Shown here: positions 23,495 to 47,800 of the stretch, piece after piece | Numbering within the stretch: position 1 is the stretch's first letter | How the letters are laid out: each line of letters opens with the position of its first letter | Notes under the pieces: model-generated | What the model saw: only the letters and a program-made list of their open reading frames with translations | What the model was told of the DNA's origin: nothing | Databases searched by the model: none | NCBI GenBank assembly: GCA_015069625.1 | Contig: SVIE01000002.1 | Coordinates: forward strand, 1-56,125 | From: Clostridiales bacterium | GTDB lineage: Bacteria; Bacillota; Clostridia; Christensenellales; Borkfalkiaceae | Reading direction: 5' to 3' | Length of the DNA stretch: 56,125 nt | Position numbers and translations under genes: made by a program

Positions 23495-24601
23495 TTATTT
23501 TGAAAGTTCTGCTTTTACGGTATCAAGTGCGGCTCTAACAACTTTATCCATATCATAATATTTATACGTTCCAAGACGTCCGCCGAAAATTACGTTTTTA
23601 TCTTGTTTTGAACGTTCTAAATATTTTTGATATAATTCGTTATTCTTATCGTTGTTGATAGGATAGTAGGGGTCGTCGCCAAGTTTCCATTCACTACTAT
23701 ATTCTTTGCTGATGATGGTTTTTGGGCTAACAGAATTTTCAAAGTGTTTGTGTTCGATAATTCTTGTAAATGGTGTTTCTGCGTCGGTGTAGTTCATTAC
23801 TGCAACACCTTGATAGTTTTCTTCATCAAGCGTTTCGTTTTCAAATCTAACCGCTCTCCATTCTAACGGACCGAATTCATAGTTATAGAATTTATCAATT
23901 TCGCCCGTGAATACGATTTTTTCTGCAATATCAGCGTTATCTTTGATAAAATCAAAATAGTCGGTAGAAAGTTTAACGTCGCTACCTTCTAACATTTTTT
24001 CAATAATAGCGGTGTAGCCACCGATAGGAATGCCTTGATATCTATCGTTGAAATAGTTGTTATCGTAAGTAAAACGAAGTGGCAATCTTTTTATGATAAA
24101 TGCGGGTAATTCGGTGCAAGGTCTACCCCATTGTTTTTGTGTGTAGCCTTTAATGAGTTTTTCATAAATGTCCTTGCCGACCAAACTTAAACCTTGTTCT
24201 TCTAAATTTTTAGGTTCAGAAATATTAAGTTCTGCTTTTTGGCTTTCAATTATTGCTTTTGCTTCAGCAGGGGTTTGAATATTCCACATTTTGCTGAACG
24301 TGTTCATGTTGAAAGGCAGGTTGTAAAGTTCGCCCTTGTAGTTTGCGATAGGACTGTTAATATAGTTGTTAAATTCACAGAATTGATTCATATAATCCCA
24401 AACTTCTTTATCCGAAGTATGGAAGATGTGAGCCCCGTATTTATGAACGTTAATGTTTTCTTGTTTTTCAGTATAGATATTACCTGCAACGTTAGGTCTT
24501 TTGTCTATAACTAAACACTTTTTGCCCATTTTTGTTGCTTCACGTGCGAAAACTGCACCGAAAAGCCCTGCGCCAACAATTAAATAATCGTAGTTTTTCA
24601 T
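23495..24601 (-). CDS. glf: UDP-galactopyranose mutase
   Basis: MKNYDYLIVGAGLFGAVFAREATKMGKKCLVIDKRPNVAGNIYTE...HKYGAHIFHTSDKEVWDYMNQF; likely start 24601. Confidence 0.95.
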   Translation of the reverse strand: MKNYDYLIVGAGLFGAVFAREATKMGKKCLVIDKRPNVAGNIYTEKQENINVHKYGAHIFHTSDKEVWDYMNQFCEFNNYINSPIANYKGELYNLPFNMNTFSKMWNIQTPAEAKAIIESQKAELNISEPKNLEEQGLSLVGKDIYEKLIKGYTQKQWGRPCTELPAFIIKRLPLRFTYDNNYFNDRYQGIPIGGYTAIIEKMLEGSDVKLSTDYFDFIKDNADIAEKIVFTGEIDKFYNYEFGPLEWRAVRFENETLDEENYQGVAVMNYTDAETPFTRIIEHKHFENSVSPKTIISKEYSSEWKLGDDPYYPINNDKNNELYQKYLERSKQDKNVIFGGRLGTYKYYDMDKVVRAALDTVKAELSK

Positions 24602-24736
24602 AACCGTTTCCCTTTGTAAAATGCTTAATAGATAATATAGCACAACAAAAATATTATGTCAACCAGATTAAAGTTTATGCATAATTTTATAGCACTAATA
24701 TAATATTAAAGTAATTAAGAATTAAAAATAAAAGGG

Positions 24737-24765
24737 TTGACTTAAAAAGTGCTTCATGCTATAAT
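24737..24765 (+). promoter_or_regulatory. Sigma-A promoter for the polysaccharide operon
   Basis: TTGACT (24737-24742), 17 nt spacer, TATAAT (24760-24765); followed by palindrome GTTCTtttgAGAAC at 24784-24797. Confidence 0.8.
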
Positions 24766-24843
24766 ACTAAAATCAAATGGTATGTTCTTTTGAGAACAAA
24801 TTTGTTTAATACCCTAAATAGCGTCTTGACGGAGGGCTTAAAA

Positions 24844-27600
24844 ATGATAAATGATAAAGAAAAAAGCGACGTAGGTTTAGTTGGTTATTGGTACGCCACC
24901 AATTATGGTAGCGTTATAACTTACTATGCGCTTAGCAAAGCAATAAATGAATTAGGATATTCAACGGTAATTATCGATTGTCCCGAAAAGGAAAAAGATC
25001 CAGAAGGCGAAGACGTTTTTCCACGTAAATTTTTCAAAACGCACGGCAAGGTTTCCGAAAGCGTTAGATGGAATGAACTTGAAAAACTCAACGACGTTTG
25101 CGATAATTTCGTTATCGGGTCAGACCAAGTTTGGACGGCGAATGCAACAAGATGGATGAGATATATGTTCTTTTTGCCTTTCGTTAAAGGGGAAAGAAGA
25201 AAAATCGCTTACGCTCCGTCGTTTGGACATAATGCGCTTGAACTTACGCCTGAAGAATTTGAACAAGTTGGCGCATGCTTAAAAACATTTAATAAAATTT
25301 CCGTTCGTGAAGACGTGGGTATTGATTTAATTAAAAAGCAATTCGGATTAAAGGCGGATAGAGTGTTAGACCCCGTATTCTTAATGGATTTACACGAATA
25401 CAATAGCCTTGCATACGAATCAGAACTTAATCTTCCAGAAGAATATTTGTTAGTTTATTTATTAGACCCAACGCCAGACAAGGAAGTTGCTATTAAAAAG
25501 GTGGCAGACGAAAAGGGACTAAAAGTACAAATTATTTTAGACGGCAGAAAGAATACTTTTGAAAAGAACTTGGCAAAACTTACAATTTTTAAAAGAGAAG
25601 ACGTGCTTGCAAACGTTGATGCTTGCGATTGGGTGAAGGCTTTTGAAAAAGCCACTTACGTTGTAACCGATTCACATCACGGACTTGCAATGGCGATAAT
25701 CTATAATAAGCCGTTTATCTGCTATGCAAATCACGGCCGTGGTTATGCAAGATTTACTTCGCTATTAAACGTACTTGGACTTCTTGATAGAATGGTTCAA
25801 AAGAGTGATGAAATTAACGTTAAGATGATTAATGCATCTGAAAACTATGCGAAAGTAAACAAGATACTTAAAAAAGAAAAGGATGCGTCGCTTGAATGGT
25901 TAAAAGATGCCCTAACAAGCAAAAAGAAGGTAGAACAAGTTCCTATCGAAAACCCTGCTCTTGACGCACTTTATTCAAATTTTGATTTTAAGAAAATTCA
26001 ACTTGTTGCAACGTTGCTTCGTGATTATGGCGTTAAGCATATAGTCTTATCACCTGGTGGAAGGGACGTTCCGATTATAAGAATGTTTGAATATAATGAA
26101 GGAAGTTTCACTCTGCACCGTGTTACTGACGAAAGAAGTGCTGGTTATTATGGATTAGGGATTGCAACACAGTTAAGACAGCCTGTTGCTTGTATTTGCA
26201 CAAGTGGAACGGCGGCAAGTAATTATTTACCAGCGGTTACAGAAGCCTATTTTACAGGTGTTCCACTCATCATGGTAACGGCAGATAGATATGAAGTATA
26301 TCACGGACATGGTGAAGATCAAACTATTCCGCAAAAGCATATCTTCCACGGTGTTGTTAAAAAGGAAATCTCATTACCTGAAAGCGGTGGATACTTAAAC
26401 GAATATCAAGCAAGACGTGATATTTCCGATTGCATTTTGGAATCTACGCATAACGGGTTTGGGCCCGTTCATATCAACGTGCCTATTCAAGATATCATGG
26501 TAGGTGCTAAGTTTGATAGATTCTATTGGAGACTGCCTTCTAAAATCTTCCCACATATTTTAAGGGTCGGCTTTAATGATGGTGATAAGGAAATGTATAA
26601 GTGGGTAGATTCGCTTAAAAAGTCCCCCAAAATCTTGGTTGTTTACGGACAAAACGGCCCGCTTTCTAAAGAAGAAAAAGATGATATAAATCTTTTTGCT
26701 TCTAAATATAATTGCGCAATCGTAACCGATACGATTTCTAATTATTCGTCAGAATATACCATTAGTTCTTACAACTTGTTAAACGCTATGACGCAAGACG
26801 AGTTTAATAGAGAATTAGCCCCCGATATTTTAATAACCGTTGGCGGAAAAAGATTAATGAATGATCCGTTAACGTATAAAATTAGGGGAAATAAAAACGT
26901 TAGACATTGGCACGTTGCACCAGACGGAAAGATAAGAGATTTTTATTTCTCGTTGACGTCAGTTATAGAATCGACGCAAAAGCAATTCTTTAAGTGGTTT
27001 GCAAATAAGGCAGGGGAAATTTCTAACAATAGAACTTATCTTAACAAATGGAAGAAGTTTGAAAAGGAAAGACTTGCAAGACCGATTGGTGGATTTAATT
27101 CTATCACTATTCAAAAGAAATTTATTCCTTCAATACCTGCAAATTCAATGTTGCATTTAGGTGTTGGTCAAACGTTTATAGAAGTTAGAAGATTCAACGT
27201 TGACCCTTCTGTTGAAGTTTATTGTAATATGGGTACTAACGGTATCGACGGTTGCACTTCAACGTTTATGGGTCAATGCGCCGTGCTTAAAAATAAACTT
27301 TGCTTCTTGCTTGTTGGGGATTTAAGTTTCTTCTACGATATGAATTCTATTTGGAATAAGCCCTTGCAACCAAATATGAGAATTTTACTCGTTAACAATA
27401 ACGGCACGGGGTTGCTTAAAGGACATGGGTTAAAAGCGGTTACTTCCGTTCATAATACAACGGCGGAAGGCTGGGTGCGTTCAACAGGCTTTGAATATAT
27501 TAGTGCTAAATCGGAACAGGAATTTGAAGAAAAATTAAAATACTTCTTAAATCCAGAAGTTAAAAAACCGTTATTCTTTGAAGTTTTGTGTGATAGATAA
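24844..27600 (+). CDS. Bifunctional: polysaccharide pyruvyltransferase-like domain fused to MenD-like ThDP-dependent enzyme
   Basis: N-term GYWYATNYGSVITYYALSKAI...VIGSDQVW...TDSHHGLAMAIIYNKPF; C-term SPGGRDVPI...DERSAGYYGLGIA...CTSGTAASNYLPAVTEA...RILLVNNNGTG. SD ggaggg upstream of ATG 24844. Confidence 0.85.
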   Translation: MINDKEKSDVGLVGYWYATNYGSVITYYALSKAINELGYSTVIIDCPEKEKDPEGEDVFPRKFFKTHGKVSESVRWNELEKLNDVCDNFVIGSDQVWTANATRWMRYMFFLPFVKGERRKIAYAPSFGHNALELTPEEFEQVGACLKTFNKISVREDVGIDLIKKQFGLKADRVLDPVFLMDLHEYNSLAYESELNLPEEYLLVYLLDPTPDKEVAIKKVADEKGLKVQIILDGRKNTFEKNLAKLTIFKREDVLANVDACDWVKAFEKATYVVTDSHHGLAMAIIYNKPFICYANHGRGYARFTSLLNVLGLLDRMVQKSDEINVKMINASENYAKVNKILKKEKDASLEWLKDALTSKKKVEQVPIENPALDALYSNFDFKKIQLVATLLRDYGVKHIVLSPGGRDVPIIRMFEYNEGSFTLHRVTDERSAGYYGLGIATQLRQPVACICTSGTAASNYLPAVTEAYFTGVPLIMVTADRYEVYHGHGEDQTIPQKHIFHGVVKKEISLPESGGYLNEYQARRDISDCILESTHNGFGPVHINVPIQDIMVGAKFDRFYWRLPSKIFPHILRVGFNDGDKEMYKWVDSLKKSPKILVVYGQNGPLSKEEKDDINLFASKYNCAIVTDTISNYSSEYTISSYNLLNAMTQDEFNRELAPDILITVGGKRLMNDPLTYKIRGNKNVRHWHVAPDGKIRDFYFSLTSVIESTQKQFFKWFANKAGEISNNRTYLNKWKKFEKERLARPIGGFNSITIQKKFIPSIPANSMLHLGVGQTFIEVRRFNVDPSVEVYCNMGTNGIDGCTSTFMGQCAVLKNKLCFLLVGDLSFFYDMNSIWNKPLQPNMRILLVNNNGTGLLKGHGLKAVTSVHNTTAEGWVRSTGFEYISAKSEQEFEEKLKYFLNPEVKKPLFFEVLCDR

Positions 27601-27605
27601 TAGGT

Positions 27606-28400
27606 ATGGAAAACATAAAGTTAAGACCGCATAATATTATTGTAATCGGTGGCGGAAGTGGTATAGGCAAGGCAATAACGCAAAGACTATTAGATAACGG
27701 TGCAACAAACATTGTAATCGCTTCAAGAAATTTAGACAAATTAAAAGAAGCGCAAAAATCGTTTAATCTTAAAGAAGGACAGAACGTTTATTCTGTGGCG
27801 TTCGATATAACCAAAGTAAATTCGCACTTAGAAATGATAAATAACGCCCAAAAGGTTATAGGAATAGAGAACAAACTCGACGGGCTTGTGATTTCTGCTG
27901 GTGTAAATTTCGATGGTTCTAATTGGAAAGGGTTTAACGTATCCGAAGCCGATTGGGACAGGGTTATGAACACCAACTTAAAAGGCACCTTCTTCATTTT
28001 AAGAAATTTTGCTAATTATTTGAGCGAAAAACAAACGAAAGGCAATATCTGTGTGATTTCATCAATTAGTGCTCACAGAGATATGTTATCGCCCTATCAA
28101 ATAGCAAAGCACAGTTTATCAAGAATAGTGCAAGCGTATGGCAAGCATTTGTGTGAAAGGGGTGTAGTTCTAAACTGTGTAGAACCAGGACCTATTTACA
28201 CGGATATGATGAAACATTTAGAAAAATATACGGACGGGATTAGAGAAGGCGCACCATGGAATGATGCGTCGATAAGAAGACTTGTTCGTCCGGAAGAAAT
28301 AGCAGACGTGGTGTGCTATTTAATGTCAAACTTAGGCGAAGTTTTGTCGGGAAGTTGCATTGTTGCGGCAGGTGGAACTAAATCTATTTTCCCGTCATAG
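27606..28400 (+). CDS. SDR-family oxidoreductase
   Basis: GGGSGIGKAITQRLLDNG; VISSISAHRDMLSPYQIAKHSL. Confidence 0.92.
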   Translation: MENIKLRPHNIIVIGGGSGIGKAITQRLLDNGATNIVIASRNLDKLKEAQKSFNLKEGQNVYSVAFDITKVNSHLEMINNAQKVIGIENKLDGLVISAGVNFDGSNWKGFNVSEADWDRVMNTNLKGTFFILRNFANYLSEKQTKGNICVISSISAHRDMLSPYQIAKHSLSRIVQAYGKHLCERGVVLNCVEPGPIYTDMMKHLEKYTDGIREGAPWNDASIRRLVRPEEIADVVCYLMSNLGEVLSGSCIVAAGGTKSIFPS

Positions 28401-28424: not shown

Positions 28425-29477
28425 ATGGCAAAGGTAAGTATTGTCGTTCCCGTTTATAACGTGGAAAAATATTTAAAAGAATGTTTAGACAGTATTGTAA
28501 AACAGAAGTTGAAAGACATAGAAATTATCTGTGTTGACGATGGTTCTAAAGACGGCTCGATGGATATTCTCAGAGCGTATGAAAAAAAGGACAAGCGTGT
28601 TAAGGTTATAACAAAACCGAACGCAGGTTACGGCAACACCATGAACTTAGGTATGGCTGCGGCAACGGGTGAATATATCGGTATCGTTGAATCTGACGAC
28701 TGGGTTGAAAAAACCATGTTCTACGATCTTTACAACACGGCTAAAAAGTATAACGCTCAGATTGTAAAATCCGATTATTTTGAATTTTCAACCACGGGTG
28801 GAAAGAAGGAAACGTATATTCAAACGCCCACCAACCCACGTTATTATAACAAGGTTATTTCTGCATACGACGTTGAAGAAATTTATCACTTCGCAATGAA
28901 TACTTGGACGGGTATTTACAAGACGGATTTTTTAAGAGAATTTAATATCCGCCACAACGAAACGCCTGGTGCTTCCTATCAAGATAACGGTTTCTGGTTT
29001 AAGACGCTATCGCTAGCCGGCAGAGTTGTTTACGTTGACAAAGCATACTATCATTACCGTCAAGACAACCCCAATTCTAGTATCAATAGCAAGGGTAAAG
29101 TTTTCTGCATGTGTGATGAATATGCGTTCATTAGAGAGTTTATTGAAAAGAATCCTAGGGTTAAAAGGATGCACTTGCCAACTTATATGGCTAAGAAATA
29201 TTATAACTATTTCTACACTTATAAGAGAGTTGCGCCTGAATATAAGATTGCCTTCTTAGAAAGATTTGCAAAAGAATTCAAAGAATCATTTAAGCTTAAA
29301 GAAATTGATAAAACTTTCTTGCCTGCGCATGAAATGTCTATCCTAGAACGTATTATGAAAAATCCTAAAAAGTTCTATTATGACGATACCGTTTGGGCGC
29401 TTAATAGCGAATACTTGGCACTTGCAGACGTGAAGGGTGCAATTTTAAGTAAAATGGAGAAGAACAATGGAAAATAA
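28425..29477 (+). CDS. Glycosyltransferase family 2
   Basis: KVSIVVPVYNVEKYLKECLDSIVKQ...CVDDGSKDGS; ESDDWVE. Confidence 0.93.
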   Translation: MAKVSIVVPVYNVEKYLKECLDSIVKQKLKDIEIICVDDGSKDGSMDILRAYEKKDKRVKVITKPNAGYGNTMNLGMAAATGEYIGIVESDDWVEKTMFYDLYNTAKKYNAQIVKSDYFEFSTTGGKKETYIQTPTNPRYYNKVISAYDVEEIYHFAMNTWTGIYKTDFLREFNIRHNETPGASYQDNGFWFKTLSLAGRVVYVDKAYYHYRQDNPNSSINSKGKVFCMCDEYAFIREFIEKNPRVKRMHLPTYMAKKYYNYFYTYKRVAPEYKIAFLERFAKEFKESFKLKEIDKTFLPAHEMSILERIMKNPKKFYYDDTVWALNSEYLALADVKGAILSKMEKNNGK

Positions 29478-30633
29478 AATTAAAATTTCGGTTATTATTC
29501 CCGTTTATAATACGGTAGATTTTTTAGATACTTGTTTAGACAGTTTATTCTTGCAAAAGTATAAAAACGTTGAATACGTTATCGTTGACGACGGTTCAAC
29601 CGACGGTTCTTTAGAACTTTGTCAAAAATATGCGGCAAAAGATGAAAGATTCGTTGTTTTCTCTAAGGAAAACGGTGGACCATCTAGCGCAAGAAATTTG
29701 GCGCTTGAAAAGGCAAGGGGCGAATACATAACGTTCGTTGACTCTGACGACTTTATCGCTACCGACGCTTATGAAAAAATTGATGCGCTTTTAACTAAAC
29801 ACGGCAATCCCGACGTGCTTGTTTTCGGTGCTAACTTAGTGCCGGAATATGCAAAACAAGGCATGTACGATTTAGTCGCAACGAGAGACGTTGTTTATGA
29901 AAGTTTCACCCCAGATGCACTCTTAAAAGAAGTTGGGGCAAGACCGTTTTTGTGGTTGCAAGTTGTTAAACGTGATTTAATCGTTAAAAATGACATCAAA
30001 ATGGATGAAACCATTGACTTAGGCGAAGATCAGTTGTTCCAAATGGAATTCTTCCCGTTTGCAAATAAGATTGTTTTCGTTTCGGATAAATTCTATTATT
30101 ATCGTTGGTTGCGTGATAATTCGCTTATGAAAAAATATGGCGAAAACGCAACGAAAAAGTTGCTAGCGCACGTTAATTTAATAGATAAAGTTTTCTGTGC
30201 AATTTTCACGGACAAATATTCTGAAGAATTGAAAAATAGAATTTTATCGTGGTCAATTTTCTTTATGTGGGGCGATTTAATTGAAATGCTTGAAGCAAAT
30301 CAAGTTAAAATTGCAAGCGCATTAGTTAAAGTTTGGGAAAAACACAACTGCAATTCTCAATACGACAATTTAGACGTTTGGGGCAAGTTGAGATACAACC
30401 AAATTACTTTAATGGGTATTGAAGATAAAGACAAAAAGATTGAAGAATATAAAAAAGAAATTGCTAAAATTAAAGAAGAAGTAGAAGCGTTAAAGAAGAA
30501 ACCAGAATATAAGAAGATTCTTAAACAGCAAAGAAAGGAAAATAAACTTTGTCATAAGGGTTGGGAATATTTGAAAACGCACGGATTAATTAGAACGCTT
30601 AAAAAAGTTAAAAACAAGTTAAAGTACAAATAA
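29467..30633 (+). CDS. Glycosyltransferase family 2
   Basis: KISVIIPVYNTVDFLDTCLDSLF...IVDDGSTDGSLELC; FVDSDDFI; overlaps previous stop. Confidence 0.93.
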   Translation: MENKIKISVIIPVYNTVDFLDTCLDSLFLQKYKNVEYVIVDDGSTDGSLELCQKYAAKDERFVVFSKENGGPSSARNLALEKARGEYITFVDSDDFIATDAYEKIDALLTKHGNPDVLVFGANLVPEYAKQGMYDLVATRDVVYESFTPDALLKEVGARPFLWLQVVKRDLIVKNDIKMDETIDLGEDQLFQMEFFPFANKIVFVSDKFYYYRWLRDNSLMKKYGENATKKLLAHVNLIDKVFCAIFTDKYSEELKNRILSWSIFFMWGDLIEMLEANQVKIASALVKVWEKHNCNSQYDNLDVWGKLRYNQITLMGIEDKDKKIEEYKKEIAKIKEEVEALKKKPEYKKILKQQRKENKLCHKGWEYLKTHGLIRTLKKVKNKLKYK

Positions 30634-30654
30634 GATAGAGAAAATTATCCTATT

Positions 30655-30690
30655 AAAACAGCACTCACCAAACGTGGGTGTTGTTTTATT
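30655..30690 (+). terminator. Intrinsic terminator
   Basis: AAAACAGCACTCACC-aaac-GTGGGTGTTGTTTTATTTT (with mismatches). Confidence 0.65.
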
Positions 30691-30780: not shown

Positions 30781-32178
30781 ATGATTTTAACACAAAAATA
30801 TCCTTTTATAAACGCAATAAGAAGTGCATTAGAGAGCATCTATCTAGTTCCGATTATGTTTTTAATCGGTTCTATTTGTTGGTGGTTTTCTTTGTCGTTA
30901 GTGTCGGTTGCGGTTTTTGCAGGTGTTGCCGTGTTAATCTTTTTATTCTGCAAAAACGTTAATAACTTTTTTGCGCTTCTATTTTACGTGTCCTTTTTTA
31001 TTAAAAATATTTATGTTGGGAATACCAACTGGATAGGTTATATAGTTAGTATCGCTATTGCAGTTGTCTTTATTTTTGCGTTTGCAATCAAGATGATAAT
31101 AGTCGAAAAAATCAGCCTTAAAGATAGCAAAATGGCTATCGCAATCATTTTGTCGTCGGTGGCGTTTTTGCTTGGCGGGGTTATCGGTAGATTTGATATT
31201 TTAGTGTTTGCTATCACGCTTGGGCTTAGTTTGGCAACCTTTGTTATATACTTAATCGCAAGGCATAGAACGTGCGAATTAACAAAATATTTTGCTAAAC
31301 TTTTCATGATAGGTGGCGTATTTTTGATAATTAACATTTTAGCGCACAGACTATCGTTAACAGGTTCTATCTTTATAGGTAAGCCACAGGGCGAGTTGTT
31401 TTTCTTTTCTTCGCAAACGCTAAACACCGCTGCAATTTATATAATGCTTGCAATTGGTGGCTGTTACTTTTTTGGTGCGGGAAAGAAGTGGGACGTGTTA
31501 TGGTTTTTACTTTCCGTTTTCTTTTACGGGGCGGTAATATTAACTTCTTGTAGAGCGGCGATATTAGTTGCTTCGCTAGTTATAATAGCAATCTTCGTGT
31601 TATTTATAGTGCAGTCTAAACGTAGACTTAATTTTCTTTGGTTAACGCTTGCTTTGGCGTTATGCTTGGGCGTTGTGCTAATAGTATTTAGGGGGCAAGT
31701 GGGCAAACTTATTGCTATGATAGGCGAGAAGTTAAACAGCGGACTAAACGGCAGAGATGAACTGTGGCCGTGGTGTATTGAAATGTTCAAAAAATACCCT
31801 GTATTTGGTTTTGGGTTTGTTGCAGACGAGCCCGTTCCGTCGTTAAGCCACAACACAACGGTTGCACTTGCGCATAACACTCCGTTACAATGGTTAACGT
31901 CGCTTGGGATAATCGGAACGCTCGTTATGTGTTATTTCTATTTTGTAAAGTACAAAATAGTTTTCAAGGGCGCATCACTAAATAAGTGTTTTTTGATAAT
32001 TTCCATTTTAGCGATAGAGTTAATAGGTATGTTTGACCAAACGCCGTCTATGGATATCTTTATGTATATTCTAGCCGTGGTTCTAATTGCTTGTTGCGAA
32101 AGACCAAAAAAACAATATAAAATGGTAAAAACGTATAAAAAAGCGGTTTGGAAAACCCCTTTGCATATGCATAAGTAA
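30781..32178 (+). CDS. O-antigen ligase/polymerase-like (Wzy-like) membrane protein
   Basis: Polytopic; large loop GLNGRDELWPWCIEMFKKYPVFGFGF...LSHNTTVALAHNTPLQWLTSLGIIG typical of the O-antigen ligase family. Confidence 0.8.
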   Translation: MILTQKYPFINAIRSALESIYLVPIMFLIGSICWWFSLSLVSVAVFAGVAVLIFLFCKNVNNFFALLFYVSFFIKNIYVGNTNWIGYIVSIAIAVVFIFAFAIKMIIVEKISLKDSKMAIAIILSSVAFLLGGVIGRFDILVFAITLGLSLATFVIYLIARHRTCELTKYFAKLFMIGGVFLIINILAHRLSLTGSIFIGKPQGELFFFSSQTLNTAAIYIMLAIGGCYFFGAGKKWDVLWFLLSVFFYGAVILTSCRAAILVASLVIIAIFVLFIVQSKRRLNFLWLTLALALCLGVVLIVFRGQVGKLIAMIGEKLNSGLNGRDELWPWCIEMFKKYPVFGFGFVADEPVPSLSHNTTVALAHNTPLQWLTSLGIIGTLVMCYFYFVKYKIVFKGASLNKCFLIISILAIELIGMFDQTPSMDIFMYILAVVLIACCERPKKQYKMVKTYKKAVWKTPLHMHK

Positions 32179-32456: not shown

Positions 32457-33143
32457 ATGGAAGTACAGAACAATAAGGGGCTTATAATAGATTATATTCC
32501 AAAGAAACGGGGCGGAAAAGTCTATGCTTTTTTCAAAAGGCTTTTTGATATTTGTGCGTCCTTTTTGGGATTAGTCGTTTTATCTCCTGTTTTGCTTATA
32601 ATATTTATTGCCGCAGTTATTGCAACCGGTGGGCATGGTACGTATATAGACAAGCGTATCGGTAAAAACGGCAAAGAAATAGGCGTGTTGAAATTCCGCA
32701 CAATGATTAAAGGCGCAAACGAACACCCCGAAGCATATTTGAATTTAGAACAACAAAGAGAATATGAAGAAGAACGCAGGGTAGAAGACGATCCTAGGGT
32801 TACAAAGTTTGGTAAGTTTTTAAGAAAAACGGCTATTGACGAACTTCCTCAATTATTTAATATCCTTATCGGACAAATGAGTTTTGTTGGACCTAGAGCG
32901 GTAACAATGGGGGAAGTTGAAAAGAACTTTTCACCAGAACAAGCCAAATTATTACTTTCCGTTAGACCTGGGTTAACAAGCAGTTGGCGTGCATACGGTA
33001 AGCATAGTGCTTATTACACGAACGGTGGCCGTCAACGTTTAGAACTTGAATATTTAGAACGCAGAAGTTTTAGTAGGGATTTGAAAATTATATTTTCCAC
33101 CTTTTCTAGTGTATTAACAGATAAGGATGCTAAAAGAAGATAA
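32457..33143 (+). CDS. Polyprenyl-phosphate hexose-1-phosphate transferase (bacterial sugar transferase)
   Basis: KRLFDICASFLGLVVLSPVLLI...KFRTMI...LRKTAIDELPQLFNILIGQMSFVGPRA. Confidence 0.93.
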   Translation: MEVQNNKGLIIDYIPKKRGGKVYAFFKRLFDICASFLGLVVLSPVLLIIFIAAVIATGGHGTYIDKRIGKNGKEIGVLKFRTMIKGANEHPEAYLNLEQQREYEEERRVEDDPRVTKFGKFLRKTAIDELPQLFNILIGQMSFVGPRAVTMGEVEKNFSPEQAKLLLSVRPGLTSSWRAYGKHSAYYTNGGRQRLELEYLERRSFSRDLKIIFSTFSSVLTDKDAKRR

Positions 33144-33148
33144 ATAAA

Positions 33149-35221
33149 ATGGAACGAATAGCGGTAGTTTTAGGCAAAATGAATAGCGGTGGGATTGAAA
33201 GCGTGGTTATGGATTACTACGCTAATCTCGACTATTCTCGTTATCAATTTGATTTTTTCGTTCAAGAAGATTCGGATAATATCGCCTATTCTATGATAAC
33301 CGCTCGTGGTGGCAGGGTGTTTTTGCTACCGTCGTTAAAAAAGATTTGCAAGTTCAATAAGGTGCTTAAAAAATATCTTATTGACGGTGAATATAAAATA
33401 ATGCACGTTCACCAAAACACTCTTTCGGTTTTTGCTTTAAGGGTGGGCAAAAAAGCGGGCGTGCCTATAAGAATAAGTCATAATCATTCCACTTCAAATA
33501 AAAAAGAAGTGGTAAGACACTTAACAAAAGTTATTTTACGTCCTTTTGCAAACAAGTTTGCAACCGAGCGTTGTGCGTGTAGTGAACACGCTGGCAAATG
33601 GCTGTTCGGTAATAAACAATTCAAAAAAGGCAACGTTAAAATTATTAATAATGCTATTGACGTTGATAAATTTAAGTTTAATCAAACCGCTCGTGATGAA
33701 ATTAGAAATGAGTGGGGGTATAGCAACGAATTAGTTATCGGAAACGTTGGTAGATTTATGCCACAGAAAAACCAAAAGTTTTTAATCGACGTGTTTAAGG
33801 AATGCGAAAAGATAAATAGTGACACTCGGTTGGTTTTAGTGGGGGATGGAAAACTAAAAAACAAATTAGTCAAAAGAGTTAAAAAGTATAATCTTACCGA
33901 TAAAGTTAAGTTTGTAAACCCACGTGTCGACGTGGAAAAATTATATAGTGCGTTTGATTGTTTGGCGTTGCCTAGTATTTATGAAGGGCTTGGAAGGGTG
34001 GCTATTGAAGCGCAAGCGTGCGGGCTTAACTGCTTGTGTTCAACGCACGTTCCTAGGTGTGTTAAAGTAACGTCTTTGGTGGACTTCTTGCCGATAAAGA
34101 ACAAGAAAGCATGGGCGGTACGTTTGCTAACGGCAAGTTCTAACAGGAATAAAGATTACGCTAACGCAATTAAAGACGGCGGATATGAAATAAAAGACCA
34201 AGCAAATCAACTTGCTTTGTGGTATGATGAAATATTCGCAAAACACGGCATAGAAAAGCAAACTGAAAGTGTGGAACAAAAACCGCTTATTAGCATATTA
34301 GTTGCTGTTTATAACGTTGAAAAGTATCTTGTTCAATGTCTAAATAGTGCGTTAAATCAAACTTATCCTAATATCCAAGTTGTGATAATTGATGATGGTT
34401 CAGTTGATAAAAGTCAAGAGATTTGCAACCGTTATTCGCTAGATAAAAGGGTAAAACTTATTAGACAAGAAAACCAAGGACTTGCGGAAGTGCGAAACGT
34501 GGCGATTAAAAACGCTGACGGCAAATACGTTGCTTTTCTTGATGGTGATGATTTTATTTCACCATATTACGTTGAAAACTTATATAACGCACTTATTAAA
34601 ACGGGTGCAAGTATATCTAGTTGCAACTTCGTTAAGTTTTATAATGGAGATAATTTGCCAAGTTATCAAAAAGCGGTAGAGTATCGTGTTCTTGATAAGA
34701 AAGATTATCTTGGCGAAACGTTACTACAAAAAACCGAGTGGGGCGCATGGGGTAAACTTTATCTTAAAGAAACGGCTGAAAAATTACATTACCCCACGGG
34801 AAATAACTATGAAGATTTGGCTGTGTTTCCAACGCTTTTATCCGAAATCGATAACGTGTGTATGATTTCGGAAAAAGACTACGTATATAGGCAAAACGAC
34901 CAAAGCATTTTGCATAAACCGTTCAAGGAAAAGGATAAGGTTTACGTAGAGTTTATTAAAAATCTTGCTAAATACGTTGAAGAATATTATCCCGAGCATA
35001 AAAGCAAGACGGTATGTAGGGAATTTTCCGTTTATTGTCATTTGTTTTTGAGAATAAACAAAAAAGAAAATCCTAATGAATATAACGATTATTGGGGCAA
35101 GATAAAAGAATATAGACGGGTAGTGTTAAAAGAAAAGCATGCCCGCAAAAAGAATAAGATTGCATGTTTCGTGTCATATTTTGGAAAGTGGATTTTCAAA
35201 ACGGCATTTAAGTTGATTTAG
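33149..35221 (+). CDS. Two-domain glycosyltransferase (GT4-like N-terminus fused to GT2-like C-terminus)
   Basis: GT4-like: MNSGGIESVVMDYY...LPSIYEGLGRVAIEAQACG; GT2-like from ~aa 378: LISILVAVYNVEKYLVQCLNSAL...IDDGSVDKSQEI. Confidence 0.9.
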   Translation: MERIAVVLGKMNSGGIESVVMDYYANLDYSRYQFDFFVQEDSDNIAYSMITARGGRVFLLPSLKKICKFNKVLKKYLIDGEYKIMHVHQNTLSVFALRVGKKAGVPIRISHNHSTSNKKEVVRHLTKVILRPFANKFATERCACSEHAGKWLFGNKQFKKGNVKIINNAIDVDKFKFNQTARDEIRNEWGYSNELVIGNVGRFMPQKNQKFLIDVFKECEKINSDTRLVLVGDGKLKNKLVKRVKKYNLTDKVKFVNPRVDVEKLYSAFDCLALPSIYEGLGRVAIEAQACGLNCLCSTHVPRCVKVTSLVDFLPIKNKKAWAVRLLTASSNRNKDYANAIKDGGYEIKDQANQLALWYDEIFAKHGIEKQTESVEQKPLISILVAVYNVEKYLVQCLNSALNQTYPNIQVVIIDDGSVDKSQEICNRYSLDKRVKLIRQENQGLAEVRNVAIKNADGKYVAFLDGDDFISPYYVENLYNALIKTGASISSCNFVKFYNGDNLPSYQKAVEYRVLDKKDYLGETLLQKTEWGAWGKLYLKETAEKLHYPTGNNYEDLAVFPTLLSEIDNVCMISEKDYVYRQNDQSILHKPFKEKDKVYVEFIKNLAKYVEEYYPEHKSKTVCREFSVYCHLFLRINKKENPNEYNDYWGKIKEYRRVVLKEKHARKKNKIACFVSYFGKWIFKTAFKLI

Positions 35222-35272: not shown

Positions 35273-36082
35273 ATGAAAAAATACAATGCTGACAAAATGC
35301 CATTAGCGCAGTACTGGTACGTATTAGAGTTAAACGTTAAAAAGAGCATTAAACAGCAATATAGAAATTCAACGCTCGGCGTAATTTGGACGGTGTTAAA
35401 CCCCCTTCTTAATATGCTTGTTATGGCGTTCGTTTTCTCTACGATATTTGGTCGTGGCAATATAAATATGGATTACGCTTGCTATCTTTTAGCAGGTAAT
35501 ATGATATTTGGTTTCATGAGGGGCGCAACAACAATGTCGCTCACTTGCGTGGTTGAAAATAGAGATTTGATGACTAAAACGAGAGTGCCTATTTCCACCT
35601 TTACTATGGCTAAGACGGTAACCGCATTAACGAATTTCGGCTTTTCTATGATTGCACTTATCTTGGTTATGGTTGTACAATATTGTAGGGGACAAGCGGT
35701 TGTGTTCGGGGTTAGTATGTTACTTGCGGTGCTTGTAGTTCCTGCATTGTTTATGTTCTCGTTAGGATTAGGATTTTTCCTTTCTACGATTTACGTTAGG
35801 TTCCGTGACGTTAAACACTTATACAGCGTATTTTTAACGCTTTGGATGTATGCAACGCCTATTTTTTATTCGTTGGATTTTATAAAGGACGATATTGTTA
35901 AAAAGGTTATAGGTATTAATCCTATGACGATTTACGTGGATATTTTCCGTAACGTATTTATTGCCGGCGGTGCTATGGATTGGATGCAACTATTAATAGG
36001 TTTTGCTTGGGGAATAGGTATGCTTTTAATTGGTTTGCTTGTTTTCCACAAGAGCAAAAATTCATTTGTTTTGCATATTTAA
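35273..36082 (+). CDS. Polysaccharide ABC transporter permease (Wzm/TagG-like)
   Basis: LELNVKKSIKQQYRNSTLGVIWTVLNPLLNMLVMAFVFSTIFGRG; ABC-2 type topology. Confidence 0.9.
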   Translation: MKKYNADKMPLAQYWYVLELNVKKSIKQQYRNSTLGVIWTVLNPLLNMLVMAFVFSTIFGRGNINMDYACYLLAGNMIFGFMRGATTMSLTCVVENRDLMTKTRVPISTFTMAKTVTALTNFGFSMIALILVMVVQYCRGQAVVFGVSMLLAVLVVPALFMFSLGLGFFLSTIYVRFRDVKHLYSVFLTLWMYATPIFYSLDFIKDDIVKKVIGINPMTIYVDIFRNVFIAGGAMDWMQLLIGFAWGIGMLLIGLLVFHKSKNSFVLHI

Positions 36083-36092
36083 GGAGAAGAAG

Positions 36093-37001
36093 ATGGCAGA
36101 TAAGGACAATAAAAATCTTAACACCGAACCTTCAAAGGCTCCGAAAAAGCATAGGTTAATTAAAGATTTGCAAGTGCAAACCGTTGCGCATATTGAAAAA
36201 ACGGCAGACGAAACCGTAAAGAATGGAAATATAGAAGTTGACGGGGATAATTTTACCAACAACCTTAACGTTTTAGTTTCGGTAAATAACGTTTCAATGC
36301 GCTTTAAGTTGCCAAGCGAAAGAGTGGATAACTTTAAAGAAGCGTTCATTAAAAAGATTAGCGGAAAACTCAAATACAAAGAATTTTGGGTTTTAAAAGA
36401 TGTTAATTTAATCCTTCGCCGTGGCGAATCGCTTGCGATTATCGGCAGAAACGGTGCGGGGAAAAGTACGCTATTAAGCCTTATTTCTGGCATCTATTAT
36501 CCTACGAAAGGAAATATTCAAGTCCGTGGTAAAATCGTGCCTTTGCTCCGTTTAGGTGCGGGCTTTGATTTGAATGCTACAGGGAAAGAAAACGTCTTTT
36601 TGAACGGTGCTATTTTAGGGTTTAACAAGAAACTTCTTGAAGAAAAATACAATGAAATAGTTGAGTTCTCTGAACTTAAAGATTTTATGAACGTGCCTAT
36701 TAAGAATTATTCGTCGGGTATGCTTGCCCGTTTGGGGTTTGCAATAGCCGTTTCCGTGCATCCCGATATTATGATTGTGGATGAAATTTTATCCGTCGGT
36801 GATGCGCCTTTCCAAAAGAAATGTGCTGACAAGATTGCCGAACTTCAAAAGGCGGGAACAACCTTCTTGCTCGTATCTCACAACATGACAAGAGTTAAGG
36901 CGTTGTGTCAACGGGCTATATGGATAAAGGACGGCGGGGTCGTGATGCAAGGCACGGCTAACGAAGTTGCGGATGCTTACTCAAAAGAATATTCAAAATA
37001 G
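36093..37001 (+). CDS. Polysaccharide ABC transporter ATPase (Wzt/TagH-like)
   Basis: Walker A GRNGAGKSTLL, signature NYSSGMLARL, Walker B IMIVDEIL; ATG 36093 after aaggagaag. Confidence 0.92.
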   Translation: MADKDNKNLNTEPSKAPKKHRLIKDLQVQTVAHIEKTADETVKNGNIEVDGDNFTNNLNVLVSVNNVSMRFKLPSERVDNFKEAFIKKISGKLKYKEFWVLKDVNLILRRGESLAIIGRNGAGKSTLLSLISGIYYPTKGNIQVRGKIVPLLRLGAGFDLNATGKENVFLNGAILGFNKKLLEEKYNEIVEFSELKDFMNVPIKNYSSGMLARLGFAIAVSVHPDIMIVDEILSVGDAPFQKKCADKIAELQKAGTTFLLVSHNMTRVKALCQRAIWIKDGGVVMQGTANEVADAYSKEYSK

Positions 37002-37089: not shown

Positions 37090-38961
37090 ATGACGGAAAA
37101 ACTTTTTTCTATAACGTTATACACTGAGGGCGTATCTGCGCCCTCTAATATGTATTATAGGGTATGTGAGGGAGATGCTTGGTTTAACGACGGGCGTATT
37201 GCCTTCAAGAAGGGTGCAAGCGTTTGCTTTGACACCTTCTTTAATTGTTTTTCTTTTTCTAAATATAAGGCGTATACGGACGTTAAAGGGTTAGAAGTAG
37301 AACTTGAAGTTGAAGGCGAATTTCAAGTGGACGTATGCGTGCGCAGATTAAAAGCGCATTTTGAAAAAAAGTATAAATTAGGCGATTCGTTTGATGAAAC
37401 TCCGCTTGATTTTGATAAATATGCTACCGACGAGTTTTTATATAGCACGAAAGTTAAAGGGGATGGAAAAACAAGTTCAACGCTCCCGCTAGATATTGAA
37501 AGGCTAGAAGGAGATGGACTTATTTATTTTACGCTTACTTGTTCAAGCGAAAAGGGTGCGCTTATCGGCGGAAGATATAACGCTAAAACCGAGCCGATAA
37601 ATGAGCCGAAAATTGCTATTGGGATATGCACGTATAAGCGTGAAACGTTTGTTTTAAGCACACTTGCTAGAATAAAAAAGTTTTTAGAAGATAACGCCGA
37701 ATATAAAGATGCTTTCCGTGTGTTCGTTGTAGATAACGGCAAAACGCTTGGTAGTCTTGATGAATTTAACTTTGCAAGATTAATAGAGAATAAAAATCTT
37801 GGCGGTTCGGGTGGATTTGCTCGTGCAATAATGGAAATTAAAAAAAGTGGAGAGTTTTCGCACTTTTTATTAATGGACGACGATATTGTGCTAAATCCCG
37901 TCGCACTAGAAAAGGTGTACGGACTAATTGCTTATGCTAGCGACGTGAATAAACTAGCGATAGGCGGGGGAATGATGTTCCTTGAAAAAGCGAACTGTCA
38001 ATACGAATTCGGTGGCAGATGGGCAGGGTTAAACCTTGAACTTTTCAATAGGAACTATAACCTTAGTGATAAAACGTTCGTTGCGCTTAACGAGTGGCAA
38101 AACACCGCCGATTACAATGCGTGGTATTTTGCGTGCATGCCTATTTCTATAACGGAAAAGGGGTTACCACTCCCGCTTTTTATTAAATGCGACGACGTGG
38201 ATTATGGTTTTCGATGGGAAGGGGACTTCTTGACAATGAACGGTATTTCCGTTTGGCATGAAGATTTCGACCTTAAATATAGTGGTGAATTAGAATATTA
38301 CTTAAAAAGAAACGAAGTGATTATAAATGCGTTGTGGCGGTCTGATTTGGGCGGTTTTTTCCATGCGAAGAAACTTATACGTGCAATCGCTGCACAAATT
38401 GTTTCGCAAAGATATGAAGTGTGCGATTTAGTTTTTAAGGCGTTTAACGATTTTCTTAAAGGTCCAGACTTTTTATTAAGCACTAATGCGGAAGCGTTGC
38501 ATGCAGAACTAAGAAAGATGGCGCCAGAGCAGTATTCAGGCAAACAACTTCAAGCCATGGGGTATGACGTTGATAGGGAATACTGGCAAGCACCGAAAAA
38601 AGATAAAACTATTCGCAGAGTGTTAACTCTTAACGGATATTTAATCCCCAACTGTTTTTACGACAAGGACGAAGTGAAAAGGGGTAGGCTTATAAGACTT
38701 ACCAGAGTTAAGCCACGGTACTATTATAAGTCGGTGCTTACAATTCAGTACAATCGTGAAGTTGACAAGGGGCTTGTAACTGAACAAAAAAGGGGTAAAC
38801 TTTTTACCGTTGGATTTAAACTTCTTGGCATGTGTATTAAAATACTTTTCAAGTATAAAAAAGCAAGAAAACAATTCCAAGTAAAACGAGAAGAACTTAC
38901 AAGCTGGGCAACGTGGGAAAGGCTGTTGGAATTAGACAGTTCTAATAACGAAAAAGAATAG
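37090..38961 (+). CDS. Galactofuranosyltransferase GlfT2-like glycosyltransferase
   Basis: N-terminal beta-rich region then GICTYKRETFVLSTLARIKKFL...NLGGSGGFARAIME...HFLLMDDDIVLNP...FIKCDDVDYGFR; consistent with glf nearby. Confidence 0.85.
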   Translation: MTEKLFSITLYTEGVSAPSNMYYRVCEGDAWFNDGRIAFKKGASVCFDTFFNCFSFSKYKAYTDVKGLEVELEVEGEFQVDVCVRRLKAHFEKKYKLGDSFDETPLDFDKYATDEFLYSTKVKGDGKTSSTLPLDIERLEGDGLIYFTLTCSSEKGALIGGRYNAKTEPINEPKIAIGICTYKRETFVLSTLARIKKFLEDNAEYKDAFRVFVVDNGKTLGSLDEFNFARLIENKNLGGSGGFARAIMEIKKSGEFSHFLLMDDDIVLNPVALEKVYGLIAYASDVNKLAIGGGMMFLEKANCQYEFGGRWAGLNLELFNRNYNLSDKTFVALNEWQNTADYNAWYFACMPISITEKGLPLPLFIKCDDVDYGFRWEGDFLTMNGISVWHEDFDLKYSGELEYYLKRNEVIINALWRSDLGGFFHAKKLIRAIAAQIVSQRYEVCDLVFKAFNDFLKGPDFLLSTNAEALHAELRKMAPEQYSGKQLQAMGYDVDREYWQAPKKDKTIRRVLTLNGYLIPNCFYDKDEVKRGRLIRLTRVKPRYYYKSVLTIQYNREVDKGLVTEQKRGKLFTVGFKLLGMCIKILFKYKKARKQFQVKREELTSWATWERLLELDSSNNEKE

Positions 38962-45583: not shown

Positions 45584-45612
45584 TTGATAAAACTTTTTAT
45601 AAGTGTTATAAT
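45584..45612 (+). promoter_or_regulatory. Sigma-A promoter for the second structured leader
   Basis: TTGATA (45584-45589), 17 nt spacer, TATAAT (45607-45612). Confidence 0.85.
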
Positions 45613-45617
45613 GAATA

Positions 45618-45830
45618 TGCCAAACAATCTGAATACTCGTAGCCATAGGTGTTTTTTCTTTTATAGGAATATTATACCTTTTTTTGGCAATACCATTAAG
45701 AAAACCAAATTTGTAAAAATGCGGCTCCTTCTTAATGGTAAGGTTTCACCTATACTACGATGGATTGTTTGGCGACAATTGGAGTCTGCGTTTTTGTGCG
45801 ACGACTTCGGTTGTCGCACTTTTTATTTTT
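45618..45830 (+). ncRNA. Structured 5' leader with terminator (candidate attenuator/riboswitch-like element)
   Basis: P1 GCCAAACAATC(45619-45629)/GATTGTTTGGC(45763-45773); P2 CGTAG(45638-45642)/CTACG(45755-45759) and ATAGGTG(45645-45651)/CACCTAT(45747-45753); P3 TACCATTAAGAA(45691-45702)/TTCTTAATGGTA(45729-45740); terminator GTGCGACGAC-TTCG-GTTGTCGCAC + U tract. Confidence 0.75.
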
Positions 45831-45850
45831 ACAAAAAAGGAGAATGTATT

Positions 45851-47800
45851 ATGCAAAAGAAGATGTTGCTTGTTTTATTAAGTGTTGTTATGATTTTTTC
45901 AATGTTATTTGGTATTAGTGCTTGTTCTATCAATAACACAGTAAAATATATTTACACGAACAGTCAAGGTGAAACAAGTTGTTTTGAAATTGATTTTGAT
46001 AAGAAAGAATATACATATAGTGGTAACGCGTGTTATAGGGAAGGTTGGGGCTATATGTTGATTCCGAACACACGCTTTGAAGTATCAGGCAATATAAGAT
46101 TAGATTATAAAATTAATGGCTATACTGTCTATAAGTTTTCGAATCACCCATGGAATTATCAATATCCTATGGGTATAACAAGTGATGGTAATATCTTGCG
46201 AGTGCAGTGGACGCCATTTAATAGTTATGATTTTATAAAAGAAGGATATTTGCAAGATGAAAATTCTGGTAATAACTCTAATAATAACGACGAAAATTCT
46301 AACAACAACTCTAATAATAACGACGAAAACTCTAACAACAACTCTGAACAACAAGAAACAACTCAAACAAGTTACTCAATAGAATATTTTGTCAACGATA
46401 ATAATTTTGGGAGCGTTACAGGAGAATTAAACCAAACCGTAAAAAGTTATCAAAACGGAACGAACGTTACGGCGGTGGCTAAAGACGGCTATCGTTTTAT
46501 CGGTTGGTCTGATGGTGTCACCACAGCAACAAGACAAGAAAAAAACGTAACCAAAAATATTTCAGTTACAGCATATTTTGAAATAATACCAACATACACC
46601 ATTGAATACCACACAGGTGGAAATGGTAGTATAGATGGAGAAACAAACCAACTTGTAAAAGAAGGCGAAAATTCAAGTTCAGTGACTGCCGTACCAGATG
46701 AAGGATATAGATTTGCAGGTTGGTCAGACGGCGTAAAAGATGCAACAAGGCAAGATTTTAACGTTGTATCAGACGTAAATGTTAGCGCAACTTTTGAATT
46801 GATTGAATATACTTATACTTATAAAGTTCAAGTTAGTGGTGGAACGTCAATGGGAACGCTAAACGGTGATAGAGAAACTGTCGTAGAAATGAAAGGTTCG
46901 ATTTTAAACGACTACCAAGGAGAATTAGTAACTGTTTACCCTTCGCAGGGATATTATAGATTTATTGGTTGGTCAGACGGAGAAACAGAAATTACCAGAC
47001 AAGATAAGATAGAAAGCGATAAAGAAGTTATTGCACAATTCGAGTTGTTTTACAAATTCAACTTTGTGGCAGGAGATGGTGGTACTATTCAGGGCGAAAC
47101 CTATCAAGAAGTAGGCGCTGGTAATTATACGACAGCCGTTACAGCAGTGGCAAACGAAGGATATAAGTTTTGGGGCTGGCAGTACCAACAATACCATAGC
47201 GACTATTATTTGTGGAGCGAAACGATTTCCCTTTCAACGCAAGACATGCTTTTTAGCAATACATACACTGCTATTTTTAAAAAAATAGAATACACGGCGA
47301 AATATACTAGTACTTACGGTGGCACGATTAAATATGAATATACGCCATTTGATCAAAATGCAAATAATTACAATTCAAATGGTGTAAGTAGCGTTACGTT
47401 TACTATTTCGATAGACAATCAATTCAATGCACCACAAGTGACGGCGACGCCCGACGAAAATTACCGTTTTGTGAAATGGAGCGATGGAAATACGTCCCCC
47501 ACAAGGCAAGATTTAAATCTTAACGGGAATTTAGAAGTTAAAGCGGAATTTGTTAGGGTTTATAAATTTACTTTTGTAGCAGGAGAAGGCGGTACTATTC
47601 AGGGCGAAACCTATCAAGAAGTTGACGCTGGTAATTATACGACAGCCGTTACAGCAGTGGCAAACGAAGGATATGAATTTTGGGGCTGGCAGTATCAACA
47701 ATATCATAGCGATTATTATTTGTGGAGCGAAACTATAACGGTTTCTTCAAATGATTGGACGTTTGGGGATTGTTATACCGCAATATTTAAAAAAGTATAG
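45851..47800 (+). CDS. Lipoprotein with multiple InlB-like (Listeria-Bacteroides) repeats
   Basis: MQKKMLLVLLSVVMIFSMLFGISAC lipobox; Asn-rich linker; repeated AVAKDGYRFIGWSDGVTTATRQ-type units. Start 45851, not 45584. Confidence 0.85.
   Translation: MQKKMLLVLLSVVMIFSMLFGISACSINNTVKYIYTNSQGETSCFEIDFDKKEYTYSGNACYREGWGYMLIPNTRFEVSGNIRLDYKINGYTVYKFSNHPWNYQYPMGITSDGNILRVQWTPFNSYDFIKEGYLQDENSGNNSNNNDENSNNNSNNNDENSNNNSEQQETTQTSYSIEYFVNDNNFGSVTGELNQTVKSYQNGTNVTAVAKDGYRFIGWSDGVTTATRQEKNVTKNISVTAYFEIIPTYTIEYHTGGNGSIDGETNQLVKEGENSSSVTAVPDEGYRFAGWSDGVKDATRQDFNVVSDVNVSATFELIEYTYTYKVQVSGGTSMGTLNGDRETVVEMKGSILNDYQGELVTVYPSQGYYRFIGWSDGETEITRQDKIESDKEVIAQFELFYKFNFVAGDGGTIQGETYQEVGAGNYTTAVTAVANEGYKFWGWQYQQYHSDYYLWSETISLSTQDMLFSNTYTAIFKKIEYTAKYTSTYGGTIKYEYTPFDQNANNYNSNGVSSVTFTISIDNQFNAPQVTATPDENYRFVKWSDGNTSPTRQDLNLNGNLEVKAEFVRVYKFTFVAGEGGTIQGETYQEVDAGNYTTAVTAVANEGYEFWGWQYQQYHSDYYLWSETITVSSNDWTFGDCYTAIFKKV
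46274..46339 (+). repeat. 33-bp tandem repeat x2 encoding (N/S/D/E)-rich linker
   Basis: AACTCTAATAATAACGACGAAAA[T/C]TCTAACAAC twice. Confidence 0.9.
47069..47225 (+). repeat. ~157 bp intragenic duplication, copy 1
   Basis: Near-identical to 47579-47735 (GGTIQGETYQEV.AGNYTTAVTAVANEGY.FWGWQYQQYHSDYYLWSET). Confidence 0.9.
47579..47735 (+). repeat. ~157 bp intragenic duplication, copy 2
   Basis: See 47069-47225. Confidence 0.9.

Follow-up and report, generated by a model that had tools for sequence, protein, structure and literature searches.

The present analysis concerns a 56,125-nt stretch of DNA from a Clostridiales bacterium (GCA_015069625.1, SVIE01000002.1, positions 1 to 56,125; hereafter the window), in which a single gene joins a polysaccharide pyruvyl transferase (PSPT)-like head to an enzyme resembling MenD, a thiamine diphosphate (ThDP)-dependent enzyme of the menaquinone pathway. 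Sequence comparisons indicate that the product is probably a two-headed glycan-modifying enzyme that, together with a short-chain dehydrogenase/reductase (SDR), makes an unusual carbon-extended acid side group for the sugar coat, not vitamin K. We consider it likely that the module is distinct from MenD and forms a C–C bond on a substituent of a glycan. The data support the view that a MenD relative has been repurposed as part of a glycan module, and we found no earlier description of a PSPT–MenD-like pairing. The gene and its partner are arranged as follows:

24737..24765, + strand: sigma-70-like promoter 5' of the fusion gene (TTGACT-17-TATAAT, extended TG; 11/12 consensus positions; consensus match only)
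24844..25968, + strand: PSPT-like head with GT-B fold, residues 1-375 (PF04230, E 3.4e-32; model)
25981..27597, + strand: C-terminal MenD-like ThDP domain, residues 380-918 (TIGR00173, 256.5 bits; PDB MenD matches; residue table)
27606..28400, + strand: SDR (PF13561/PF00106), found next to fusion or unfused ThDP genes at other loci

Positions 24844-27600 of the + strand encode one 918-aa protein with zero internal stops. The reading frame starts with ATG at 24844, downstream of a Shine-Dalgarno-like GGAGGG, and its stop codon ends at 27600; in the program-made list of open reading frames (ORFs) the gene begins further upstream, with TTG at 24790. The Pfam family PS_pyruv_trans (PF04230) covers residues 20-297 (112.9 bits against a gathering score of 25.3), TPP_enzyme_N covers residues 386-497 (E 1.1e-18), and the NCBIfam menD equivalog TIGR00173 covers residues 386-811, passing its cut-off of 244.2 bits. 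The best solved relatives of the ThDP head are MenD structures, by sequence as well as by structure (PDB 2x7j, 3lq1, 7tin), and MenD structures are also the top structural matches of the AlphaFold model of the whole protein. The pTM of this full-length model is low (0.54) and its rmsd to MenD high, and no active-site geometry was taken from it. A previous sequence-only reading of this DNA had described one continuous ORF with a pyruvyltransferase-like N-terminus and a full-length MenD-like C-terminus. Pfam, TIGR00173 and AlphaFold agree with this description, the three motifs quoted there are all found in the protein, the SDR gene lies directly behind the fusion (5 bp past its stop), and there is no second men gene within the window. 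The source genome is an incomplete metagenome-assembled genome (MAG) of 1.22 Mb, 77% complete, and the window is part of its contig 8. A frame or assembly error as the origin of the fusion was rejected, because the gene is intact and stop-free at 61–75% identity in independent assemblies of other organisms and the ThDP domains of 28 fusions group as a single clade.

Loss of ThDP residues, named beforehand as a finding that would speak against a carboligase, is not seen. The catalytic Glu (E430) and the cofactor/Mg motifs G825-D826...N834 and N851-N852 are intact, and these motif residues are nearly invariant family-wide. Differences from MenD are located in the donor pocket. Work on S. aureus MenD (PMC9835592) assigns Arg394 and Arg411 to interactions with intermediate I, the decarboxylated 2-oxoglutarate on ThDP (succinyl-ThDP), Ser33 and Arg34 to the decarboxylation pocket, and Arg108 and residue 119 to contacts with intermediate II. 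The residue string at positions 33-34-108-390-394-411 (S. aureus MenD numbering) is SRRSRR in 23/23 true MenD proteins and GRRGIM in the window protein, where S390, R394 and R411 are replaced by G775, I779 and M796, respectively. A supported clade of 24 fusions, including that of the window, shows the same pattern: position 390 is Gly (Ala in one), position 394 is non-Arg (hydrophobic in 23, Asn in 1) and position 411 is Met. At position 390 the pyruvate-using acetolactate synthases have Gly, and at position 394 Met, Ile or Val. The fused clade retains the acceptor-side residues Arg34, Arg108 and Gln119 (R407, R482 and Q493 in the window protein), apart from one member that deviates at Arg108. 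Since Arg394 and Arg411 are lost, the simplest reading is that 2-oxoglutarate has been given up as donor, most likely in favour of pyruvate, with the acceptor side retained. Four basal fusions (L113, L114, L115 and L122) retain Ser-Arg-Arg at positions 390/394/411 and several of them pair with medium-chain dehydrogenases/reductases (MDR), which suggests a second donor class inside the fused family; Arg394 and Arg411 are also found in 12/37 unfused members sampled.

The acceptor side bears on another explanation, by which the ThDP head is a mere decarboxylase releasing an aldehyde that the SDR reduces, with no C–C bond formed. Decarboxylation is the half-reaction common to the superfamily and a reductase partner suits an aldehyde product, but the conservation of the three MenD acceptor-side residues argues against such an enzyme and the frequent PSPT partner is left unexplained. 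We regard it as improbable.

The menD cut-off and the MenD fold would be compatible with a genuine MenD (SEPHCHC synthase) of the menaquinone pathway that was fused by chance. We give this explanation next to no credence. The ThDP head lacks Ser390, Arg394 and Arg411, it belongs to a clade apart from the 23 MenD sequences, and its neighbours are glycan genes, not men genes. A men pathway lacking menD elsewhere in the genome, which according to the sequence-only reading would have pointed to MenD, was not found: menA, menB and menF (isochorismate synthase) are absent from the source genome and from 12 congeners, with controls detected. menB is also absent in several carrier isolates, and the Aeromonadales MAG L122 carries menB. 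Because the donor arginines are lost and MenA, MenB and MenF are absent, true MenD was rejected as the identity of the ThDP head.

A phylogeny against MenD had been suggested as a check, and it places the glycan-type enzymes separately from the 23 MenD rows. In a 94-sequence quick tree, with SH-aLRT as the sole support measure and with no YerE sequence among the rows, the 28 fused ThDP domains group together as a single clade (SH-aLRT 100) nested in a group of 67 glycan-cluster enzymes (SH-aLRT 90 for the separation from true MenD; 99 with 66 rows). The family is wide: unfused members occur in the glycan clusters of bacteria that include Clostridia and bifidobacteria. Scanning of 85,488 species genomes gave 80 loci, with the PSPT–ThDP fusion at L091-L115 and L122, and the fusion recurs in about 27 genomes besides the source genome. 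A relative (L004/L072) from another family of the same order has the same fusion with an SDR behind it and 66% identity in the ThDP part. The fused clade spans phyla: among its carriers are MAGs labelled Christensenella, Ruminococcus, Blautia, Prevotella, Mollicutes and Melainabacteria as well as the isolates Enterococcus sp. BWB1-3, Lactococcus insecticola and Pseudoruminococcus massiliensis; the fusion gene is absent from two congeners of the source organism. Such a scattered distribution among taxa suggests that glycan loci have been transferred horizontally.

Conservation of the neighbourhood was counted at 84 family loci (a few near-duplicates included, L077/L119 and L135/L138), with 10 true MenD loci as controls; one protein cluster that lumps GT2 with PSPT because of multidomain proteins was left out. 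PSPT is fused or lies within three genes at 70/84 family loci as compared to 0/10 MenD loci, and a reductase (SDR, MDR, aldo/keto reductase (AKR) or extended SDR) lies within three genes at 56/84 as compared to 0/10; the neighbours at the MenD loci are men genes. At the unfused loci, PSPT adjoins the ThDP gene in 25 of 57 cases versus 62 of 475 for other cluster genes (odds ratio 5.2, p 1.4e-7), and SDR adjoins it in 23 of 57 versus 21 of 475 (odds ratio 14.6, p 2e-13). Thus, the combination of fusion and reductase, for which a search had been proposed, is kept in glycan clusters. The SDR of the window has the GxxxGxG cofactor motif and the S...YxxxK catalytic residues (S-Y-K). At other loci the reductase can be a zinc-type MDR (L102, L110, L113, L122 and others), an extended SDR (L101, L103) or an AKR. 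The exchange of reductase types next to an unchanging ThDP enzyme speaks for a carbonyl product of the ThDP step that needs reduction. GlfT2-like transferases are present at 10/27 fused and 0/61 unfused loci (p 1.9e-6), and a Glf or GlfT2-like gene at 15/27 fused and 9/61 unfused loci. Galactofuranose is therefore a plausible acceptor of the fused type.

In the PSPT head, N20-x-G22, R155, H279 and R299/R303 are conserved in all 16 domains of the alignment. R148 and H308 are among the CsaB residues important for PEP (phosphoenolpyruvate) binding (PMC10435577), and the motifs are common to WbbZ (PMC10629545). By motif, with no structure alignment, R155 is equivalent to CsaB R148, H279 to H308, and R299/R303 lie near K328. 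The model of the head is a confident GT-B fold (pLDDT 90.6). We predict from these residues that the head is a pyruvyl-transferring enzyme.

MenD is unlike the rest of its superfamily in adding the carbanion to the β-carbon of an α,β-unsaturated carboxylate. The β-carbon of an enolpyruvyl ether accepts a nucleophile (hydride) in MurB. PEP-derived enolpyruvyl ethers are α,β-unsaturated carboxylates, so that PSPT, the MenD-like enzyme and the reductase would fit one assembly line. In the first step, the PSPT head would move the enolpyruvyl group of PEP onto a glycan hydroxyl, possibly of galactofuranose (R-OH → R-O-C(=CH2)-COOH). In the second, the ThDP head would decarboxylate pyruvate and the acetyl carbanion would attack the CH2= of the enolpyruvyl ether, giving R-O-CH(COOH)-CH2-CO-CH3 by a MenD-type 1,4 (Stetter) addition to the α,β-unsaturated carboxylate. 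In the third, the SDR with NAD(P)H would reduce the ketone to R-O-CH(COOH)-CH2-CH(OH)-CH3, an ether-linked 2,4-dihydroxypentanoic acid. We propose this exact route and product tentatively; both the release of a free enolpyruvyl ether by PSPT and the use of pyruvate are inferred. A Stetter-type assembly line with two donor classes, a 2-oxoglutarate type that keeps Arg394/Arg411 and a pyruvate type (the 24-member clade) that has lost them, is put forward with similar, if slightly greater, reserve. Ether-linked 2,4-dihydroxypentanoic acids are known in O-antigens; Providencia alcalifaciens O31 carries them as 2-ethers (PMC10609480). A product of the predicted kind had been deduced from the enzymes before the O31 substituent was found in the literature. 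We found no report of biosynthetic genes for an ether-linked 2,4-dihydroxypentanoic acid in literature mostly outside subscription journals, and the link of the module to the O31 substituent is one of chemical logic only.

Two other explanations use the two heads differently. As YerE does, the ThDP head could perform a 1,2-addition of acetyl to the carbonyl of a keto-sugar nucleotide, with the SDR reducing the branch to hydroxyethyl and PSPT separately ketalising the same sugar. C4-branched octoses are known to be made by pairs of a ThDP enzyme and a ketoreductase (PMC4753412), the donor-pocket residues resemble those of acetolactate synthases, and an RmlB dehydratase is encoded elsewhere in the source genome. 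However, an RmlB-like 4,6-dehydratase is found in 0/27 fused loci and is not present in the window cluster, the ThDP head is of MenD descent (1,4-addition) and not of the acetolactate-synthase branch in our tree without YerE, and the fusion to a PEP-using enzyme would have no explanation. We consider this mode unlikely. The sequence-only reading had cited YerE-type branching; MenD-type 1,4-addition fits better. Alternatively, the ThDP head could make a soluble acid or acyloin (e.g. from pyruvate and another 2-oxo acid) that is reduced by the SDR and transferred in activated form by the GT-B head. This would agree with the pairing of a ThDP enzyme and a reductase, and PF04230 domains are GT-B folds that are not all proven pyruvyl transferases, but no activating gene (CoA ligase, acyl carrier or nucleotidyltransferase) is conserved beside the module. 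We regard a soluble intermediate as rather less probable than the YerE-like mode and slightly more probable than the decarboxylase. The more general suggestion made earlier, a carboligated glycan substituent, is supported by the sequence data, given the intact ThDP residues, the absence of a men pathway and the conserved reductase neighbourhood.

Several results weigh against the enolpyruvyl assembly line. Known PF04230 enzymes form cyclic pyruvate ketals, and we know of no member of this family for which an enolpyruvyl ether has been established as the released product. The equivalent of CsaB R306 is Ser277 (TDSxH) in the PSPT head. Pvg1p and WbbZ are not within the first 50 Foldseek matches of the PSPT model, which are generic GT-B instead, and for this reason the prediction of pyruvyl transfer rests on sequence. 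Pyruvate as the donor comes solely from the lost residues. At 28/84 family loci there is no recognised reductase within three genes. Gammaproteobacterial members that could form a bridge to Providencia were sought in 387 genomes of the class of L122, where L122 was the sole glycan-type member; besides it, two loci were seen, both of true MenD accompanied by men genes.

The module shares features with several known systems. With MenD the ThDP head shares the full-length fold, the catalytic Glu (Glu56), the Mg/diphosphate motif and the Arg34/Arg108/Gln119 positions; it is unlike MenD in having Gly/Ile/Met for Ser390/Arg394/Arg411, in the fused PSPT, and in the glycan-cluster setting with no menaquinone pathway. 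The PSPT head is similar to the ketal pyruvyltransferases CsaB, Pvg1p and WbbZ in its PF04230 match, NxG and the residues equivalent to R148 and H308 of CsaB (PMC10435577, PMC10629545). It differs in having TDSxH for the R306-x-H308 of CsaB and in the fused ThDP enzyme; its first 50 fold matches are generic GT-B and do not include Pvg1p or WbbZ. The YerE/YerF branching systems likewise combine a ThDP carboligase and a ketoreductase in a glycan pathway, whereas the window module has MenD ancestry, a PSPT partner and no dehydratase in its loci. YerE itself is of the acetolactate-synthase branch, with CDP-4-keto sugars as its substrates. What connects the module with the P. alcalifaciens O31 substituent (PMC10609480) is that the product predicted from PEP, pyruvate and NAD(P)H matches it exactly. 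No description of PSPT together with a ThDP enzyme or acetolactate synthase in glycan clusters was found in the literature.

The fusion belongs to an apparent operon of four genes, fusion-SDR-GT2-GT2 (GT, glycosyltransferase), framed by the strong sigma-70-like promoter at 24737-24765 and a terminator-like hairpin at 30654-30688. Further features of the operon and of the surrounding glycan cluster are:

28425..29477, + strand: GT2 glycosyltransferase, putative operon gene 3 (PF00535, E 9.5e-36; L091 has the same order)
29467..30633, + strand: GT2 glycosyltransferase, putative operon gene 4 (PF00535, E 3.4e-33)
30654..30688, + strand: terminator-like hairpin ending the fusion-SDR-GT2-GT2 unit (15-bp stem and T tract; consensus match only)
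23495..24643, - strand: UDP-galactopyranose mutase (glf), divergent neighbour (TIGR00031, 422 bits)
30781..32178, + strand: Wzy/O-antigen-ligase-like polymerase of the same glycan cluster (PF04932)
32457..33143, + strand: priming phosphoglycosyltransferase, Bac_transf (PF02397, E 6.5e-53)
33149..35221, + strand: GT4-GT2 double glycosyltransferase (PF00534 and PF00535)
35273..37001, + strand: ABC polysaccharide exporter, Wzm-like permease 35273-36082 and Wzt-like ATPase 36030-37001 (PF01061, PF00005; TagH- and galactan-exporter-like)
37090..38961, + strand: galactofuranosyltransferase-2-like GT (PF17994 Glft2_N and GT2)

Elsewhere in the window, two lipoprotein-like proteins were noticed. One (9342-12638, 1098 aa) is an unusual chimera, in which an extracellular solute-binding domain is combined with Big_2, InlB-type and BspA leucine-rich repeats; the other (45584-47800) has five divergent InlB B-repeat domains.

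Other arrangements occur in the wider family. L007 is a second, independent PSPT–ThDP fusion, L033 has the ThDP enzyme fused to an AKR, and L092:7715-11614 is a triple fusion, a 1299-aa ORF with an FrhB-like ferredoxin/F420-dehydrogenase beta domain, PSPT and MenD-like ThDP, with the SDR behind it. At L077:4225-7365 (on a contig shared with L119) an AKR with a 4Fe-4S domain is fused to the MenD-like ThDP enzyme and an 828-aa PSPT protein adjoins. An extra stand-alone PSPT of the same subtype stands immediately before the fused one in Enterococcus (L101:7324-8517) and Lactococcus (L103:7025-8449), and the extended-SDR partners at both loci have an additional C-terminal region. On the MAG contig of L096 (4741-9728), Cas9-like and Cas1-like genes lie immediately downstream of the fusion. 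A plasmid search gave a PSPT-flippase-ThDP-NAD epimerase cluster on pRUMAL01 of Ruminococcus albus 7; other plasmid matches were PSPT-only relatives in Gemmobacter and Paracoccus, and the rest were MenD-type or partial. Scanning of viral contigs with the fusion as query gave no match. Two unannotated 'Bacteriophage sp.' records from human faeces, H17 (MT835934.1, 5346-8107) and H18 (MT836153.1, 4687-6252), contain relatives of the ThDP enzyme, H17 additionally matching part of the PSPT domain. These could be phage cargo or bacterial DNA under a wrong label.

Regarding annotation, the TIGR00173 cut-off is passed by a protein that is not MenD; glycan-type members, which are widespread in the surface-glycan clusters of Clostridia of the gut and of other bacteria, may thus carry a wrong menD annotation, and menD can be assigned to genomes that lack menaquinone. 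If our interpretation is true, the module would represent glycan chemistry for which we found no earlier description, and it would provide genes for an orphan O-antigen substituent. If the mechanism holds, ether-linked 2,4-dihydroxypentanoic acid would become accessible to genetics for the first time, and further C–C-extended acid decorations are predicted. The signature of PSPT, a MenD-like enzyme and a reductase would then find such decorations in other glycan clusters, and the donor residues would predict the donor.

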